Shown here piece by piece: positions 45,203-52,004 of a DNA stretch of 64,000 nucleotides. The DNA lies in assembly GCA_019454105.1 (NCBI GenBank), contig CP075364.1, forward strand, positions 1,429,362 to 1,493,361, given 5' to 3'. The stretch's first letter is position 1; every line of letters begins with the position of its first letter. A model generated the notes under the pieces. It searched no databases, was not told where the DNA came from, and saw only the letters and a program-made list of their open reading frames with translations. This stretch comes from Fimbriimonadaceae bacterium. GTDB taxonomy: Bacteria; Armatimonadota; Fimbriimonadia; Fimbriimonadales; Fimbriimonadaceae. A program made the translations under genes and the position numbers.

Positions 45203-45988
45203 GTGCGTCGGCTCGCCAGGATCTATCGCGTCTTCTTGGCCTCTTCATTGCAGCGCGAGCTCGAGTTTCGGGCCAACTTTATCGCCAAGGTTCTTCAAAA
45301 CGTCGCTTGGATCGTCGTCTTCACTCTCATCATTGTGGTGATCTATAGCCACACCGATTCAGTCGCTGGTTGGAACCGTGGAGAGGCTTTCGTCCTCGCC
45401 GCCACCATTTTCATGTTGGGTTCTGCATCGTCCGCGCTCTTCTTCTCCTTGGTCGAGATTCCAGAGCAAGTTCGCCGGGGCACATTGGACTTCGTCGTCA
45501 CGAAACCGATCGACTCGCAGTTCTGGGTCAGCTTACGACGCTTCAACTTTGATCAGATCGGAGCCTTTCTCGCTGGTGTCCTACTCCTGGCTTATGGCCT
45601 GGCCAACGCCGGCACCCCAGTCGGTGCTGTGCAGATCCTTTCGTACGCCGTCACCTTTCTTGCGGCCCTCGCTCTGTACTATGGCTTTAGCCTGGCCCTG
45701 ATGACCTTGGGTATCTGGCTGGTTAGAGTCGACAATCTATGGGTTCTTGGCGAGACCGTTCAGCAAGTGGCACGGTATCCGTTGGACATCTATAACGTTC
45801 ACGTTCAGCGGATGCTGACCTACGCATTGCCCTTGGCCTTTCTGGCTACCGTGCCTGCCAAGCAGCTCGTGAAGCAAGTTGATCCAACTTTCGTCTTCTT
45901 GAGTGTTCTCTATGCCGGGATCGCCGTTGTCCTCAGCAGGTCGTTCTGGCTCTTTGCTATGAAGAGATACTCGAGCGCGAGCTCCTAG
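45203..45988 (+). CDS. ABC-2 type transporter permease
   Basis: The 261-residue membrane protein has six helices (for example VAWIVVFTLIIVVIYSHTDS, LSYAVTFLAALALYYGFSLA) and starts RRLARIYRVFLASSLQRELE, as in the ABC-2 (DUF990-like) permeases that come in pairs with an ATPase. Here it stands alone: the upstream gene is divergent (33 nt between starts) and the downstream gene is convergent with a 4-nt overlap. The ATPase and second permease would have to be elsewhere. The start is GTG 45203. Confidence 0.82.
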   Translation: MRRLARIYRVFLASSLQRELEFRANFIAKVLQNVAWIVVFTLIIVVIYSHTDSVAGWNRGEAFVLAATIFMLGSASSALFFSLVEIPEQVRRGTLDFVVTKPIDSQFWVSLRRFNFDQIGAFLAGVLLLAYGLANAGTPVGAVQILSYAVTFLAALALYYGFSLALMTLGIWLVRVDNLWVLGETVQQVARYPLDIYNVHVQRMLTYALPLAFLATVPAKQLVKQVDPTFVFLSVLYAGIAVVLSRSFWLFAMKRYSSASS

Positions 45989-48219
45989 TCGCCAAACCCG
46001 AAGCCACTGCCGACCGCTTGGCCCCTCGTCCCCTGCCCGAAAAGCGATTCTGACGGAAACGCCTTGATCCGAAGGTAGAGGCCGAACGTTCGACCAGAAC
46101 GAAAGCCGATACGGTTGTCGATCACCTCGAATACCGCTTCGGCGCAATGCAAGTCGTAAACGGCTTGATAGTGCTGGGCTTCAAGCTGTTTACTATATCC
46201 GTTGTAGTCAAGGAGCATCCGAAAACCGGTTCGGCCATACCTGGCTCCCACGAGCCTTGCTGACACTCCGGCAAGGCTCTCGTTCGCAAAGTCATACCTG
46301 ACTCCAAGTCCAAGCTCCCAAGGAGACTTGCCCGTCAAAAAGTCAACTCTTAGATTGCTCCATCTCTGATCGATCGTGTCATAGTTCGCGCTGGCGTCAA
46401 GACGAAGTCGAGATCCTGGATCCCACAGGCCGCGCAACCAAATCGACCGCCACGGACTCCCGAACACTCTCTTGTAGTTGAAGTCATATCCTGATTGGGC
46501 GCTCAACAAAACGGCACTCGCAGGTGAGACAGAGAAGTCAAGAGCTAGTGCGTCCGTTTGCCCCGTTTGATCGATACTGACCGGAGAGAAGCCAAACGGC
46601 CGCAGTTGACGGTACTGAACACCCAAGGAGCCCTTTGAACCGATAGACTGCTTGAACGTGGCCTGATGGTTGAGCACGTACTGCGCAGTATCATCGCTGT
46701 ACAAACCCTGTTGAAACTCGGTTGACCAACTCATAGTCGTGGATCGGCCCATCTTTTCAGAGCGCCCAATTTGAGACGCAAAATAGAGCCTCGTCACGCG
46801 ATCTTGTCCAGCAAGGTTGGACAGTTCGCCGATCGAAGCCGACAATCGCACTGGCCAGGTCCGGCCGACTTGAGGATCGATCAACCTCTCTGAGTCTGAG
46901 CGCAATGTCAACATCGGTGTGACATCGTTTCCTGCAAAGACCCTTTCTCCTCTCCCAATGGGCACCGTCCGTGAGTACATCAACTCGGCTTCAAAAGAAC
47001 GGAAGTTCGTAGCAGCCGAATGCCGGACATCGAACCTTTCCAAGACACTGCGACTTGATCCTCCCGTCGATTCGTTTCGTTGAAGGGCCAGATCAAGGTT
47101 AGACCTCAGTGGCCCGATGCTCCGTGAGTCTGAGAGACCGAAACTCTGATCCGCCGCGTTGAACCCAGAAGTTGACGACCCGTATCTTTGATACGTGAGC
47201 CTTGTCGATCCCTGTGTTCGAGGAACAATGTACTGGCCAGACAGGTTCGTGACCGTGCTATCAGGGGCCGTCAAATAGTTTAGCCGCTGATAGGAACCAA
47301 AAGAAGACAGAGTACCGCCGAAAAGTTTGTGCTCGTGACGTGACGTGAGCAGTGTCGATCGACGAACTCCAAACAATCCGTAAAGCGAAAGCAGACCCGT
47401 TAAGGATTTATTGGAGTAGTTATAGTCCCAACCAAGGCCCGTTCCCAAGCGGCTCATCAGATCCAATCGAGTATCGACAAAATTCTCGCCAGGTAACGGG
47501 GTCGTGACTCGAGCCTTTACGTAGTAGCCTTCGTCAGGAGACTGCCCGACCGTTGGTAGCCATCTTTGCGAACCACGCTCAAGGGGGATCGACACCATCG
47601 GTAATCGAATGACGGTCTTTCCCAGTACCGACACGACCACGTTCCGAAGATCTGCTCTCTTCCCTGGAACGACCTTCACCGACTTCGATCGAATCGCGAA
47701 GTGAGGATGTTCCAGGTCACAAGTCGTTGTTTCTGCTTCGATTGCTGTGACCAGGCCAGACTCACCACCACCCTCCTTCGCCTCGACAAACAGGTCGCCT
47801 GGAGTCGGCTTACGGAGCCTCTCAGGTTCCAGCTTGGCGGCACCATTGCTAAAGGCGAACGTTTTTTCGCGAAGGTTGACATCGATGGTGTCCCCTGTGA
47901 CGACTTCGCTTGGCCCATCGACCTTTGCCTTGCCTTCGAGTCGAAACTGCTTGGATTGCCTGTTCCCTGCGATCTTGTCGGCAGTGAGAACGTACTCACC
48001 AAAAAGCATATCGACGCGTCCAACCGCTTCGATGTCGTCGCCTCGGAGAACAAGGTTGTCGGCCGACCGGATTTGCATCCTCTCTTGTCGAGTTTCGACG
48101 GTCATCTCCGGTTTCTTTTGCACTGGAATCTTCTCAAGACAGGCTCGAAAACCAGAGAACCATTCTGCGGCTTGACATGTCGTGCTCATCAAAGCGACTC
48201 CGAGAACGAGAACTCTCAC
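45985..48219 (-). CDS. LptD/OstA-like LPS-assembly outer-membrane protein
   Basis: The 744-residue protein has a signal peptide (VRVLVLGVALMSTTCQA), then an OstA/LptA-type domain (about 40-150: MQIRSADNLVLRGDDIEAVG, VLTADKIAGNRQSKQFRLEG). An LptD-like linker follows (ETTTCDLEHPHFAIRSKSVK, VVPGKRADLRNVVVSVLGKT, then VIRLPMVSIPLERGSQRWLP). The remaining ~480 residues form a putative beta-barrel with many Ser, Tyr and Arg alternations. It would insert LPS-like lipids in the outer membrane. The start is GTG 48219 in a GTGA overlap with the LptF/G gene; the frame's first ATG is inside that gene. The last gene of the five-gene operon. It lacks a C-terminal aromatic residue. Confidence 0.85.
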   Translation of the reverse strand: MRVLVLGVALMSTTCQAAEWFSGFRACLEKIPVQKKPEMTVETRQERMQIRSADNLVLRGDDIEAVGRVDMLFGEYVLTADKIAGNRQSKQFRLEGKAKVDGPSEVVTGDTIDVNLREKTFAFSNGAAKLEPERLRKPTPGDLFVEAKEGGGESGLVTAIEAETTTCDLEHPHFAIRSKSVKVVPGKRADLRNVVVSVLGKTVIRLPMVSIPLERGSQRWLPTVGQSPDEGYYVKARVTTPLPGENFVDTRLDLMSRLGTGLGWDYNYSNKSLTGLLSLYGLFGVRRSTLLTSRHEHKLFGGTLSSFGSYQRLNYLTAPDSTVTNLSGQYIVPRTQGSTRLTYQRYGSSTSGFNAADQSFGLSDSRSIGPLRSNLDLALQRNESTGGSSRSVLERFDVRHSAATNFRSFEAELMYSRTVPIGRGERVFAGNDVTPMLTLRSDSERLIDPQVGRTWPVRLSASIGELSNLAGQDRVTRLYFASQIGRSEKMGRSTTMSWSTEFQQGLYSDDTAQYVLNHQATFKQSIGSKGSLGVQYRQLRPFGFSPVSIDQTGQTDALALDFSVSPASAVLLSAQSGYDFNYKRVFGSPWRSIWLRGLWDPGSRLRLDASANYDTIDQRWSNLRVDFLTGKSPWELGLGVRYDFANESLAGVSARLVGARYGRTGFRMLLDYNGYSKQLEAQHYQAVYDLHCAEAVFEVIDNRIGFRSGRTFGLYLRIKAFPSESLFGQGTRGQAVGSGFGFGD

Positions 48220-49289
48220 TCGAGTTTCCTCATGATAATGCCGGCGACGAGGAGAAACAATGCGTTCGGCGCCCAAGCCGCCAGAATCGGCGACAGCCAA
48301 CCGTTCTTAGCAAAGATGTCACCACTGATCACAAAGAGATTCATGTAAAGCCACACAAACCCGAGACTGACTAGGACTCCAACAAAGGGCCCGGCCTTCG
48401 CAAATCTGACAGCTAGCACGGATCCCACCAATCCGAAGACAAAGCACGACGCTACGACGGCAAAGCGCTGGTGGAACGCAAGCTCAAGCGATGTCGTCGG
48501 TTGGGCCGACTTCTTGGCTTGGGCAATGGCGTTGCCAAGCGAATCAACCGTTTCCTCCTCCGGCATTGGCGGCAAGAAAACATCGCTGATCCTTATTGGC
48601 TCAAGAATCTTGATCGAGTCTTTGCTTTCCAAAGTGTTCAATTGCGAACCCTTCATGTGGAACACGGTCGGACTGACGATGGTCCAGACGCCCTCGCGGA
48701 ACCAACCCGACTCGGAGACTGTCACGACGACCTCGCCTGCTCTCGGACGTTCGATCAAGAGAACATCGCTAAGTCGGACGCTCCCGTCGCCCATCCTCTG
48801 AATACTCCCGAAGCTGGCTGCGAACCGATCTATTTCAAGCAAGACGTTCGACCTGAACTGCGGAATCGAACCCATAAAACCGACTTCGCTGCTCAATCGA
48901 CGATATTCTTTGGTCGCCGGAGGGATCAATCTCTCCACGACGAGATAATTCGCGACAGAAACCAGCCCCCCGGCGACGACAATCGGAAGCAGGATCCGAG
49001 AGACGCGAATGCCCGCCGCCCGCATGGCCGTGATCTCGCTCTCGCGAGCCAGACGCGAGATTGCCAAGGAAGCCCCCAAGGCCATACCAATTGGAAACGT
49101 ATAGTTCATCCAACTGGGTAACTTGTACAAAAGCATCTGGACGATGGCCAGACGGGGTACCGCGTCAACGTTGAAGGTCTTGTAGATCGCGATCAAGTCG
49201 TTGGCGACAAACAACAAGGCGATGACGACAGTCCCGATGAGGAGCGGCACAAGCAGCTCACCCAACAGATAGCGGTCGAGCTTTCTCAC
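48216..49289 (-). CDS. LptF/LptG family LPS-export permease
   Basis: The 357-residue protein has the LptF/G fold: an N-terminal membrane pair (DRYLLGELLVPLLIGTVVIA, then LLYKLPSWMNYTFPIGMALG with ALGASLAISRLARESEITAM), a periplasmic beta-jellyroll (about 130-255), and three C-terminal helices (RFAVVASCFVFGLVGSVLAV). The SRLARESEITAMRAAG segment is the cytoplasmic coupling helix of this family. It moves LPS from the inner membrane to the bridge with LptB ATPase. Only one such permease is present here. The start is GTG 49289, overlapping the upstream TGA; the frame extends upstream only within the neighbouring gene. Confidence 0.92.
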   Translation of the reverse strand: MRKLDRYLLGELLVPLLIGTVVIALLFVANDLIAIYKTFNVDAVPRLAIVQMLLYKLPSWMNYTFPIGMALGASLAISRLARESEITAMRAAGIRVSRILLPIVVAGGLVSVANYLVVERLIPPATKEYRRLSSEVGFMGSIPQFRSNVLLEIDRFAASFGSIQRMGDGSVRLSDVLLIERPRAGEVVVTVSESGWFREGVWTIVSPTVFHMKGSQLNTLESKDSIKILEPIRISDVFLPPMPEEETVDSLGNAIAQAKKSAQPTTSLELAFHQRFAVVASCFVFGLVGSVLAVRFAKAGPFVGVLVSLGFVWLYMNLFVISGDIFAKNGWLSPILAAWAPNALFLLVAGIIMRKLE

Positions 49290-50092
49290 CGGGTTCCCCC
49301 ATGTCCCGACAGCAAATGGACGAACATCACAACCCCGACAGCGATCAAGCCGACCGTAGAACCGACAGCCAAGGGCACGGAGACGGACGCAAGACTGCCG
49401 GCCAAAGGGAGCCCGACCAGCGCGATCAAGGCCAAAGCCCACACTCCGATCAGCTTGTTGGCGGTGTTGGGCCCGAACCAACGGCCACGAGCGAGATCCA
49501 ATATGTGGGCCCGGCCACACGAAGGACACCACACCGTTCCAGCCGTCAGAGGAATCGAGCAACCTATGCAGTGAGCCGGTCGGATCACCGAGGGCCGCAC
49601 AGCCGCTTTCCATTGATCGAACTCTCGGTGTTCAGCTGGAAAAAGCTTTCGAGGCATTTGATCCACCGCTGTTTCTGCGATCTTGAACGCCTGACCCTGC
49701 AGGCCCATGTGATAGGTCAATTGTGCTAACCGCCAAAGAGCACCGGTGTTGCCGGGATTTGTCTTGAGGCCCTCGCAAAGCCGCTGGATCTGTTCAAGAT
49801 CGATCTCCATCATGGCTCTGCGCGTCATGGCTTTTCGGACGAACGGAAACATCAACGTCGTCACCACAGCACCAAGAAAGATCCAGACGCCCAGCCCCGG
49901 GACAGGAGGAGCGATAGTGACCATGCCAAGTCCAATGGCCAAGCCGAGAACGACGATCCCGGTCAAGGCGTCGATCTCGCCCGTGACGATCCATCCGATT
50001 GCGGACAACACCCAGGCAACCACCAAGACCCAGATAAAGCATCCGGCTAAGACAGCCATCGGATCGGTGGCGAGCGAGTGAAGGAGCTTCAC
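49286..50092 (-). CDS. Membrane protein with zinc-ribbon-like motif
   Basis: The 268-residue protein has about five membrane helices: three near the N-terminus (MAVLAGCFIWVLVVAWVLSA, GIVVLGLAIGLGMVTIA, VWIFLGAVVTTLMFPF) and two at the end. A cytoplasmic middle section has TPR-like helices (LCEGLKTNPGNTGALWRLAQ, LTYHMGLQGQAFKIAETAVD) and then a zinc-ribbon-like C-x2-C ... C-x2-C (HCIGCS, WCPSCGR). Function unknown. The start is GTG 50092, overlapping the plsY TGA. Its place between plsY and the LptF/G gene, coupled at both ends, points to a role in lipid or LPS-type export. Confidence 0.75.
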   Translation of the reverse strand: MKLLHSLATDPMAVLAGCFIWVLVVAWVLSAIGWIVTGEIDALTGIVVLGLAIGLGMVTIAPPVPGLGVWIFLGAVVTTLMFPFVRKAMTRRAMMEIDLEQIQRLCEGLKTNPGNTGALWRLAQLTYHMGLQGQAFKIAETAVDQMPRKLFPAEHREFDQWKAAVRPSVIRPAHCIGCSIPLTAGTVWCPSCGRAHILDLARGRWFGPNTANKLIGVWALALIALVGLPLAGSLASVSVPLAVGSTVGLIAVGVVMFVHLLSGHGGTR

Positions 50093-50727
50093 TTGGCCTC
50101 CTCTGTGTTCGACCTCCGCCTGCCAAGTTCCAACCTGGGCTCTTCTCCTCGCAAGAGCCGGCCGATGTTGGCTCGATGCTTCCAAAAGACATAGGCGACC
50201 ATCAGTCCGTAGACTCCTAAGAAAAGACGGCTCTGGCCGGTCAAAACTGCGGCCACAAGCACGGTCGAAGCACCAATGAGGCTCGAAACGCTCACAATCC
50301 GAGTCAAGAGAAAGGCCACGACAAAGCCGCCAAAACCTGCCGTCCCGACGATCGGAGCCGTGCCCAAGAGCGCGCCAAGACCCGTCGCGATTCCCTTACC
50401 CCCCTTGAATCCGACGAACGGCGAAAGCGTGTGCCCGATGATCGCCAGGGCTCCAAAGACCAAAGCTTGATCCGGTTGAGATAGGACGACCACGCTTTCT
50501 GGCGTCAACTTCGGGAAAAAAAGTGCGGGCCCAACCCCCTTCAGCACGTCGAGCGCGAAAACGACGATGCCGTCGCGAGGGCCAAGAACACGGAAGACAT
50601 TGGTCGCGCCGATGTTGCCGCTTCCTTGACTTGTGATGTCAATGCCTCGCGCCAGCGCAACCCATTTTCCAAAGGGGAATGAGCCCACCAAGAATGCGGC
50701 CAAGCTGGCGATAAAAAACTCGATCAA
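50089..50727 (-). CDS. plsY: Glycerol-3-phosphate acyltransferase PlsY
   Basis: The 212-residue inner-membrane protein has the PlsY motifs GSFPFGKWVALARG, DITSQGSGNIGATNVFRVLG and GHTLSPFVGFKGGKGIATGL, with the acyl-phosphate binding GGKG. It makes lysophosphatidate from acyl phosphate and glycerol 3-phosphate, the first step of phospholipid synthesis in many bacteria. The start is TTG 50727, overlapping the upstream TGA by 4 nt (TTGA). A slightly long basic tail (RRRSNTEEAK) ends the protein. Confidence 0.95.
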   Translation of the reverse strand: MIEFFIASLAAFLVGSFPFGKWVALARGIDITSQGSGNIGATNVFRVLGPRDGIVVFALDVLKGVGPALFFPKLTPESVVVLSQPDQALVFGALAIIGHTLSPFVGFKGGKGIATGLGALLGTAPIVGTAGFGGFVVAFLLTRIVSVSSLIGASTVLVAAVLTGQSRLFLGVYGLMVAYVFWKHRANIGRLLRGEEPRLELGRRRSNTEEAK

Positions 50728-51902
50728 GGCCCAAGTCTCTCTGCCACGTGCGCGAAAAGTCTGCGGGCTACCGCTTGGAAACCTTCGAACAATCCGAGGA
50801 ACGCGTTACCGTCGCTCATGCCAAACGATCTTGCCACACGAGAGAGTTTGTCCGGGTTCTCAGGGACCGATTCGGGGCTCATCCCCAGGCACCCGAGTCG
50901 AAGGCGGCATTCCAACAGGAACCGATGGGCATCGATCATGGCCTCGGCCTCGATCGGCGATAGGAGGCCAGAACGGCCCAGAGAGTTGATCCTTGATGGA
51001 GTGTCAATCGGTTCGCGCTCAATGTGGCCCGCAAGAACGGCCAAATCGACTGCCCAGGACACATCGTCCAGATTGACTCGTCGGCGCTCGACCTGGGTTG
51101 GGCTCAATTCCGCTTCGATCAGAGATTTGATCTGTACCAACCGGGACAGTAGCCCCGGGCTCCACCCCGGGCGAGGCACAGTCCAATCGCCATGCAACGT
51201 CTGGTGGCACGCCCAAACGAGGGCCCACCAATCCGATCCCGCCCACGGCGCCTCGACCGACGGATCGTTGGTCAACGCAGTTCGGCCCCTTGACGACTCG
51301 GGTGGGAGCGATACCGTGTACCACGGCCGCTTGCCTGGTTCCTCAATCGCCATGGTGGCGACCATTGAGGGGGGTTCGCCAGGCACCCACTCGCCGCGTG
51401 CCAAAGAGCCGATCGCGATCGTCTCCACCCCAAACGTCGAGATTCGCTGACGCTCCAGGTCACTGGCCAGGCCGATCTCTGAGATTCCAGATTCCAGGGC
51501 TAAGACCCATGCGTCTTCCGACGTCGATGGACGGACAAGGCTAGGATCCGACGTAGACAAACCCGCAAGGATCCCTTGCGCGTCGCGGATCAATCGAGCC
51601 GCTTGTCTCTCTTCGTCGCTCACACCTTGGCCAGTAAGGATCCTTGCCAGGGCGTCAGGTCCTCGATGGGCCCCGATTCGCGCCAAGGTGAGGCCGAGAC
51701 CAGCGGCCGACTCCCAATGGTCAAGGGTGGCCACAGGGTCGGCCGATCGTCGCAGACAAAATTCGAGGGCCTCCAGCGCCTTGTCAGGATCGATCGATTC
51801 ACGCACCCATCCCTCAATAGCCTTCGTGATGGGCCTTTGTCGGATCCGTTGGATCCGTTGCAGCCTCGCTTCAGCCTCGTCGGGTCGAGAAAAGGGCCGC
51901 AT
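50724..51902 (-). CDS. GlnE/GlnD-like protein with a degenerate nucleotidyltransferase motif
   Basis: The 392-residue protein resembles half of a GlnE-type adenylyltransferase. The first ~130 residues are helical. An NTase-like core follows with IAIGSLARGEWVPGEP (about 162-177), where the active family has G-G-x-x-x-R-E-x-x-x-S-D-x-D. A GlnE-like helical domain (PTQVERRRVNLDDVSWAVDL, then LLSPIEAEAMIDAHRFLLEC) closes it. The two metal-binding Asp appear to be replaced (PPSMVATM), so catalysis is doubtful. The true start is probably ATG 51902 (MRPFSRPDEA). It heads the plsY-lpt operon and is divergent from the mannose-1-phosphate guanylyltransferase gene. Confidence 0.7.
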   Translation of the reverse strand: MRPFSRPDEAEARLQRIQRIRQRPITKAIEGWVRESIDPDKALEALEFCLRRSADPVATLDHWESAAGLGLTLARIGAHRGPDALARILTGQGVSDEERQAARLIRDAQGILAGLSTSDPSLVRPSTSEDAWVLALESGISEIGLASDLERQRISTFGVETIAIGSLARGEWVPGEPPSMVATMAIEEPGKRPWYTVSLPPESSRGRTALTNDPSVEAPWAGSDWWALVWACHQTLHGDWTVPRPGWSPGLLSRLVQIKSLIEAELSPTQVERRRVNLDDVSWAVDLAVLAGHIEREPIDTPSRINSLGRSGLLSPIEAEAMIDAHRFLLECRLRLGCLGMSPESVPENPDKLSRVARSFGMSDGNAFLGLFEGFQAVARRLFAHVAERLGP

Positions 51903-52004
51903 AGGAGGATGGGGCGGGCCAAAGCTCTTGACCGCACTCCAAGCATACACCCCCTTTGACGCCCTGCCCAGATTCAGGTGGCTGCCGCCGGTATCGTTGA
52001 ACGC

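Follow-up and report, generated by a model that had tools for sequence, protein, structure and literature searches.

A conserved envelope operon of Fimbriimonadales and, in a Fimbriimonadaceae genome, its GlnE half devoid of active-site motifs

The window analysed here, a stretch of 64,000 nucleotides, corresponds to positions 1429362-1493361 of the 2.74-Mb single-contig genome (G000) of a bacterium from the Fimbriimonadaceae, a group of the phylum Armatimonadota that has received little study. Reading of the sequence together with its list of open reading frames (ORFs) places five minus-strand genes, here called A to E, at positions 45985-51902. According to its sequence, ORF and motif alignment, gene A (50724..51902; 392 aa, ATG start) encodes a GlnE-derived pseudoenzyme. 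Gene B (50089..50727; 212 aa, TTG start) is plsY, encoding a glycerol-3-phosphate acyltransferase (PF02660, TIGR00023), and gene C (49286..50092; 268 aa, GTG start) encodes a membrane protein with TPR and zinc ribbon, as judged from sequence and model. Gene D (48216..49289; 357 aa, GTG start) encodes an LptG-like permease of the LptF/LptG family (PF03739), and gene E (45985..48219; 744 aa, GTG start) a protein homologous to the outer-membrane LPS assembly protein LptD. Consecutive genes overlap by 4 nt, with TTGA at 50724-50727 (A-B) and GTGA at 50089-50092 (B-C), 49286-49289 (C-D) and 48216-48219 (D-E), so that the operon and its NTGA junctions lie exactly where the first-pass annotation had put them. 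Of the five starts, that of C is the most doubtful, an ATG at 50059 being an alternative. Upstream of A, the intergenic region shared with a divergent mannose-1-phosphate guanylyltransferase-like gene (51903..52004) presumably carries the operon promoter; consensus promoters and terminators sought in the operon were no more frequent than expected by chance, and none was found before A. At the other end, a convergent ORF (45203-45988, plus strand), resembling ABC-2-type permeases by eye, shares 4 bases with the end of lptD.

Overlaps of this kind are frequent in the window, where 10 of 20 close same-strand gene pairs show a -4 overlap in a lax count that takes the start nearest to -4. The four overlaps of the operon are therefore ordinary and reflect dense packing rather than a special device, and we discarded them as evidence of special coupling. 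Unlike the overlaps, the conserved gene order exceeds chance. Among loci from 43 genomes of the order Fimbriimonadales, A-B-C-D-E are contiguous in 29, B-C-D-E in five, C-D-E in one and C-D in seven; one further locus is cut by a contig end. The gene order is thus old, and the arrangement described in the first-pass annotation is not confined to one strain; it is conserved at about 25-45% protein identity. The operon is present in named Fimbriimonadaceae genomes and in the 5.23-Mb genome G175, the cultured Fimbriimonas ginsengisoli probably has it in full, and the named relatives of the LptG protein belong to Fimbriimonadaceae and other Armatimonadota. One sequence bearing a Fimbriimonadaceae operon (L230, JADZEW010000035.1) is labelled Methanoregulaceae archaeon SJ84, a label that looks wrong. 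A literature search retrieved no publication on a glnE-plsY operon.

The departures from this order do not affect all junctions alike. The seven loci that retain only C-D all belong to the sister family f2. In G013 glnE has been relocated alone, and in G020 glnE and plsY have been relocated together, leaving C-lptG-lptD in place. C is missing from at least four operons (L237, L246, L302 and L306), in which plsY directly abuts lptG. Adjacency of C and lptG was observed at 43/43 surveyed loci of the order, including those of f2, where all else has moved. When the nearest possible start is taken at each junction of the relatives, an overlap of -4 is found in 19/30 cases for A-B, 9/35 for B-C, 32/43 for C-D and 29/35 for D-E.

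The first-pass identification of PlsY and of LptF/G-LptD is borne out by homology searches. Protein B matches PF02660 (E 1.5e-44) and scores above the cut-off of the TIGR00023 equivalog (142.9 versus 137.2 bits), which identifies it as PlsY. Protein D matches PF03739 (LptF/LptG; E 1.1e-58) over positions 1-352 of the 353 in the profile, hence as a full-length family member. Since its score to the LptG model TIGR04408 (145.7 bits) lies below the cut-off of 240 and above that to the LptF model (103.1 bits), we call it LptG-like only. The match of protein E to Pfam LptD_N is weak, just under cut-off; an alignment of 24 orthologues matches the solved LptD structure 8h1r (E 1.2e-14, profile positions 18-258), covering the N-terminal jellyroll and the start of the barrel, as expected of an LptD homologue. 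LpxC is encoded in 60/61 genomes and LptF/G in 61/61. The genome also contains a second LptF/G permease gene directly beside an ABC ATPase gene, and its LpxC locus additionally holds an LpxD-like gene, an OmpH-like gene and a gene for an Omp85/POTRA protein. The presence of the second permease with its ATPase, of LpxC and of the LpxD-like gene makes it very probable, at the level of gene content, that D and E are part of a functioning system for LPS export. Core genes of LPS have been reported earlier in Armatimonadetes (PMC5007114). The second LptF/G locus (L200:6541-12046) comprises the ABC ATPase, the permease and a DUF3084 protein, preceded by two ORFs that could correspond to LptA/LptC; these candidates have no Pfam match, and neither LptA nor LptC was confirmed in the genome. 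The reduced 1.5-Mb genome G028 gave no match to LpxC, GlnE, PII, GS-I or C and encodes two LptF/G proteins; it may represent an LPS-less family member that still keeps the permeases.

Protein C has no match in Pfam or NCBIfam. Its AlphaFold2 model (pLDDT 90.6) consists of three long N-terminal helices, a TPR-like unit (residues 94-168; 49589..49813), a zinc ribbon (49517..49570) and two C-terminal helices; the whole-length model retrieved no significant fold match with Foldseek. C175, C178, C189 and C192 form two CxxC knuckles and are the only invariant columns across 41 homologues, so that C carries a predicted zinc ribbon and its first-pass description as a TPR/zinc-ribbon membrane protein is correct. 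Positively charged residues that follow the third hydrophobic segment point to a cytosolic location of both the TPR unit and the ribbon. We considered C as a LptC- or LptA-like partner and rejected this candidate, the model being a helical TPR and zinc ribbon devoid of jellyroll.

Members of the C family are detected in 230/251 Armatimonadota genomes, many of the matches being weak. At none of 26 loci outside the order do lpt genes adjoin C, and no neighbour is shared there across families; instead, C occurs in several lineage-bound contexts. Among these, we take it to follow an smpB-like gene in one group and to lie near an ABC transporter region and a HicB-like gene in a second. C was found on no plasmid. 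The order itself harbours a paralogue, C2, elsewhere in the same genomes (G000:C1:186676-187386; L091:7641-8420), in G000 directly after a SpoIIM-family gene; C2 and the sequences from outside the order each form one group in the tree. A FabA/FabZ-like gene lies about 3 kb from C2 in G000. C is likewise absent from LptG loci of other phyla, and it is therefore no core component of the Lpt machinery; a universal Lpt part, another candidate, is ruled out by the same 26 loci and by the four C-less operons. Since C has no lpt neighbours outside the order and has been lost repeatedly, its tie to lptG is order-specific and dispensable. C thus defines a new family of membrane TPR/zinc-ribbon proteins, widespread in Armatimonadota and linked to lptG in a single order.

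Protein A is weakly GlnE/GlnD-like in profile searches (Pfam, NCBIfam). When relatives were searched with A, the matches lay at the C-terminal end of longer ORFs, about 850-1100 codons in length, that occupy the same operon position. These long ORFs encode intact GlnE, with GKLGGxELNYSSDxDL in the N-terminal domain and SDxD and RLRP in the C-terminal one. The SDxD and RLRP motifs of the AT half are kept in 25/25 aligned full-length GlnEs and lost in 5/5 short forms (G000, G008, G009, G010 and G022), which have lost the N-terminal domain as well. In G000 the N-terminal (AR, adenylyl-removing) nucleotidyltransferase domain is deleted and the SDxD and DLRLRPEG motifs of the AT half are lost, in agreement with the first-pass label of a GlnE-like pseudo-enzyme; no PF03710 match was detected in this protein, which lacks the two nucleotidyltransferase domains with SDxD active sites of a GlnE. 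Partial PF03710 matches had raised the possibility that the AT domain is degenerate throughout the GlnEs of the family, which we dismissed, the motifs being intact in every full-length protein. What persists is the C-terminal helical domain (residues 249-390; 50733..51158) with its conserved PENPDKL (50844-50864); this domain is present in all short GlnEs of the family and in almost all full-length ones. About 90 N-terminal residues of GlnE are also kept in G000, G009 and G263, which points to an internal deletion there. Judging from its operon position and from its homologous N- and C-terminal parts, A shares descent with GlnE, and is thus derived from a nitrogen-regulation gene. An endonuclease III-like sequence precedes the dead half in G010, in L229 (a relative of G010) and in G022, the two being fused in frame. 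Fusions of this type were located at L063:8983-10917 (minus strand), at L108:1669-3366 (minus strand), in L229 and in L230. In the L229/L230 pair the endonuclease III-like part has a dN/dS of 0.06, indicating purifying selection as for the GlnE half. A second, 181-codon frame of G004 (G004:C1:439093-439278; L311) matches only the C-terminal region of GlnE, in a genome that also encodes full-length GlnE.

The genomes encoding short forms also differ in the partners of GlnE. PII is absent from all five of them and present in nearly all genomes with intact GlnE. The genomes without PII (G000, G002, G008, G009, G010, G015, G019, G022 and G028) are all also devoid of the GlnE catalytic domain; in the incomplete genome G054, GlnE is present and PII gave no match. 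An adenylylation loop resembling DKDLYELPPEE is found in the glutamine synthetase (GS) of the GlnE-bearing genomes examined, and G000, G009, G010 and G022 encode another GS without this loop. Overall, loop-free GS occurs in seven genomes lacking the GlnE domain (G000:C1:34921-36141, corresponding to L202:1832-3271, as well as L203 and L290-L294; 272 bits to TIGR00653, whose cut-off is 429). The exceptions are G008 and G019, which combine a loop-bearing GS with the lack of a GlnE domain, GlnE being dead and PII gone in G008. On the tree, the GlnE, PII and GS traits each change 5-6 times, and the direction is always the same in independent pairs, of which only two fall on branches with good support, a number too small to be tested formally.

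Is the remaining half of GlnE maintained or on its way to disappearance? According to one explanation, A is a decaying remnant left after the loss of PII and of the GlnE-type GS, whose 3' part lingers because it bears the 5' end of the operon and the TTGA coupling to plsY. The graded series from full-length through short to absent genes would fit such a process, as would the faster evolution of the middle of A and the complete loss of gene A in G015/G265, relatives within the G000 clade. No stop or frameshift, however, interrupts any short form. In the close pair L229/L230 (dS 0.7), dN/dS is 0.02 for the last 145 codons and 0.04 for the preceding 100, compared to 0.05-0.07 for genes B-E, so that over these 245 codons the GlnE half is under stricter constraint than PlsY, LptG or LptD; 81 of the 98 changes in codons 400-645 fall at third positions. 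The values obtained for B and D in another pair, L057/L060, were left out, their reading frames having been extended too far. For G000 the nearest comparable pair is G009/G263, in which the C-terminal region has a dN/dS of 0.26 at saturated dS, and direct evidence of selection is limited to the G010 group. Decay also sits poorly with the retention of the same half in separate lineages. The short forms require four changes on the best tree, and the branch that splits their clades has full support. The clade of 12 to which the G000 group belongs, itself fully supported, leaves out G008, G010 and G022, so that GlnE was probably reduced at least twice independently. Low dN/dS together with the retention of the same half in separate lineages makes protein-level selection on A, directly seen in the G010 group, a better reading than that of a mere leader for plsY. 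We therefore regard decay as unlikely.

Two further explanations concern the operon as a whole and protein C. The first-pass annotation proposed a coupling between lipid synthesis and the export of outer-membrane lipids. The operon could accordingly act as a circuit that controls PlsY activity jointly with LPS export, A and C being new regulatory or structural parts. The conservation of the gene order between divergent proteins, the prevalence of -4 overlaps at A-B, C-D and D-E, and the presence of a dead GlnE half beside plsY in separate lineages, with purifying selection in the single pair that allowed the test, all go in this direction. But the junction between plsY and C, where lipid synthesis meets the export genes, is the loosest of the operon, A-B and C-D-E have parted in G020, f2 has only C-lptG, and C was lost while B, D and E were kept. 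Proximity alone speaks for the coupling, and we consider such a circuit improbable. The same low credence applies to a version in which the C-terminal half of GlnE has a non-catalytic function tied to the operon, for instance regulating PlsY or the Lpt machinery, and forms with C a lineage-specific control layer on envelope lipid supply. C as a needed Lpt part is contradicted by the operons that lack it and by the loci outside the order, where it is never next to lptG. C could rather be a general membrane-biogenesis or sensor protein of Armatimonadota that adjoins lptG by chance of ancestry. Its broad if often weak distribution in the phylum, its lpt-free contexts outside the order, the paralogue C2 and the repeated losses make this a real possibility, if a tentative one; against it, the main copy stays beside lptG at every surveyed locus of the order, even where all else has moved, and overlaps it by -4 in most of them.

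The explanation that we consider rather probable is that of a conserved envelope operon in which a dead GlnE half is kept as a pseudoenzyme, the membership of A being positional and C being an accessory. The operon of Fimbriimonadales consists of plsY, an order-specific copy of C, lptG and lptD, with glnE in front in most genomes, and would be expressed as one transcript with translational coupling. D, together with the ABC ATPase and the second permease, would move LPS to E. In a background without PII and with a loop-free GS, glnE of this genome has ceased to encode an enzyme, by deletion of the AR domain and destruction of the other active site; the dead half most likely still fulfils, without catalysis, some task of the C-terminal GlnE half, protein binding for example. 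A would sit in the operon because glnE already stood there, a matter of position and not of a lipid-LPS control circuit. C would most likely be an accessory inner-membrane protein whose cytosolic TPR/zinc-ribbon domain helps LptG in the order and is dispensable. The pairing of C and D wherever C occurs among the surveyed loci of the order exceeds what loose clustering predicts, and a new envelope role for the dead GlnE half or for C, as first proposed, may exist. The best reading of A is that of a repeatedly retained pseudoenzyme with a putative second function in an otherwise ordinary envelope operon. The locus offers a natural experiment, in which an enzyme stripped of both active sites, of its upstream regulator and, in most cases, of its substrate persists in place in separate lineages, under strong selection where measurement allowed. 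Whether the C-terminal half of GlnE has a second function can thereby be tested directly.

Compared with known systems, the organisation of the operon itself is ordinary; what is unusual is the variant seen in A, a dead GlnE half that has been retained. Relative to the Lpt system (LptB2FG, LptC, LptA, LptD), D corresponds to the LptF/LptG-family permease and E is LptD-like, the difference being that lptG and lptD share here an operon with plsY, C and glnE; B differs from known PlsY only in its genomic context. Residues 94-168 of C superpose on TPR adaptor domains (best Z 10.5, rmsd 1.8 over 69 residues), to which C adds the zinc ribbon and five long helices, three N-terminal and two C-terminal, whose sequences are hydrophobic. 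As for GlnE of Escherichia coli (PDB 1v4a, 3k7d), full-length glnE occupies the position of A in relatives and the C-terminal PENPDKL helical domain is common to both; GlnE structures are the only significant Foldseek matches of the A model (1v4a, 1.6e-5; 3k7d, 6.9e-4), whose alignment includes GlnE sequences. With 392 aa against about 890 aa for GlnE, A lacks the AR domain and the active-site motifs of the AT domain, and, unlike in the usual setting of GlnE, its genome lacks PII and has a GS devoid of the adenylylation loop.
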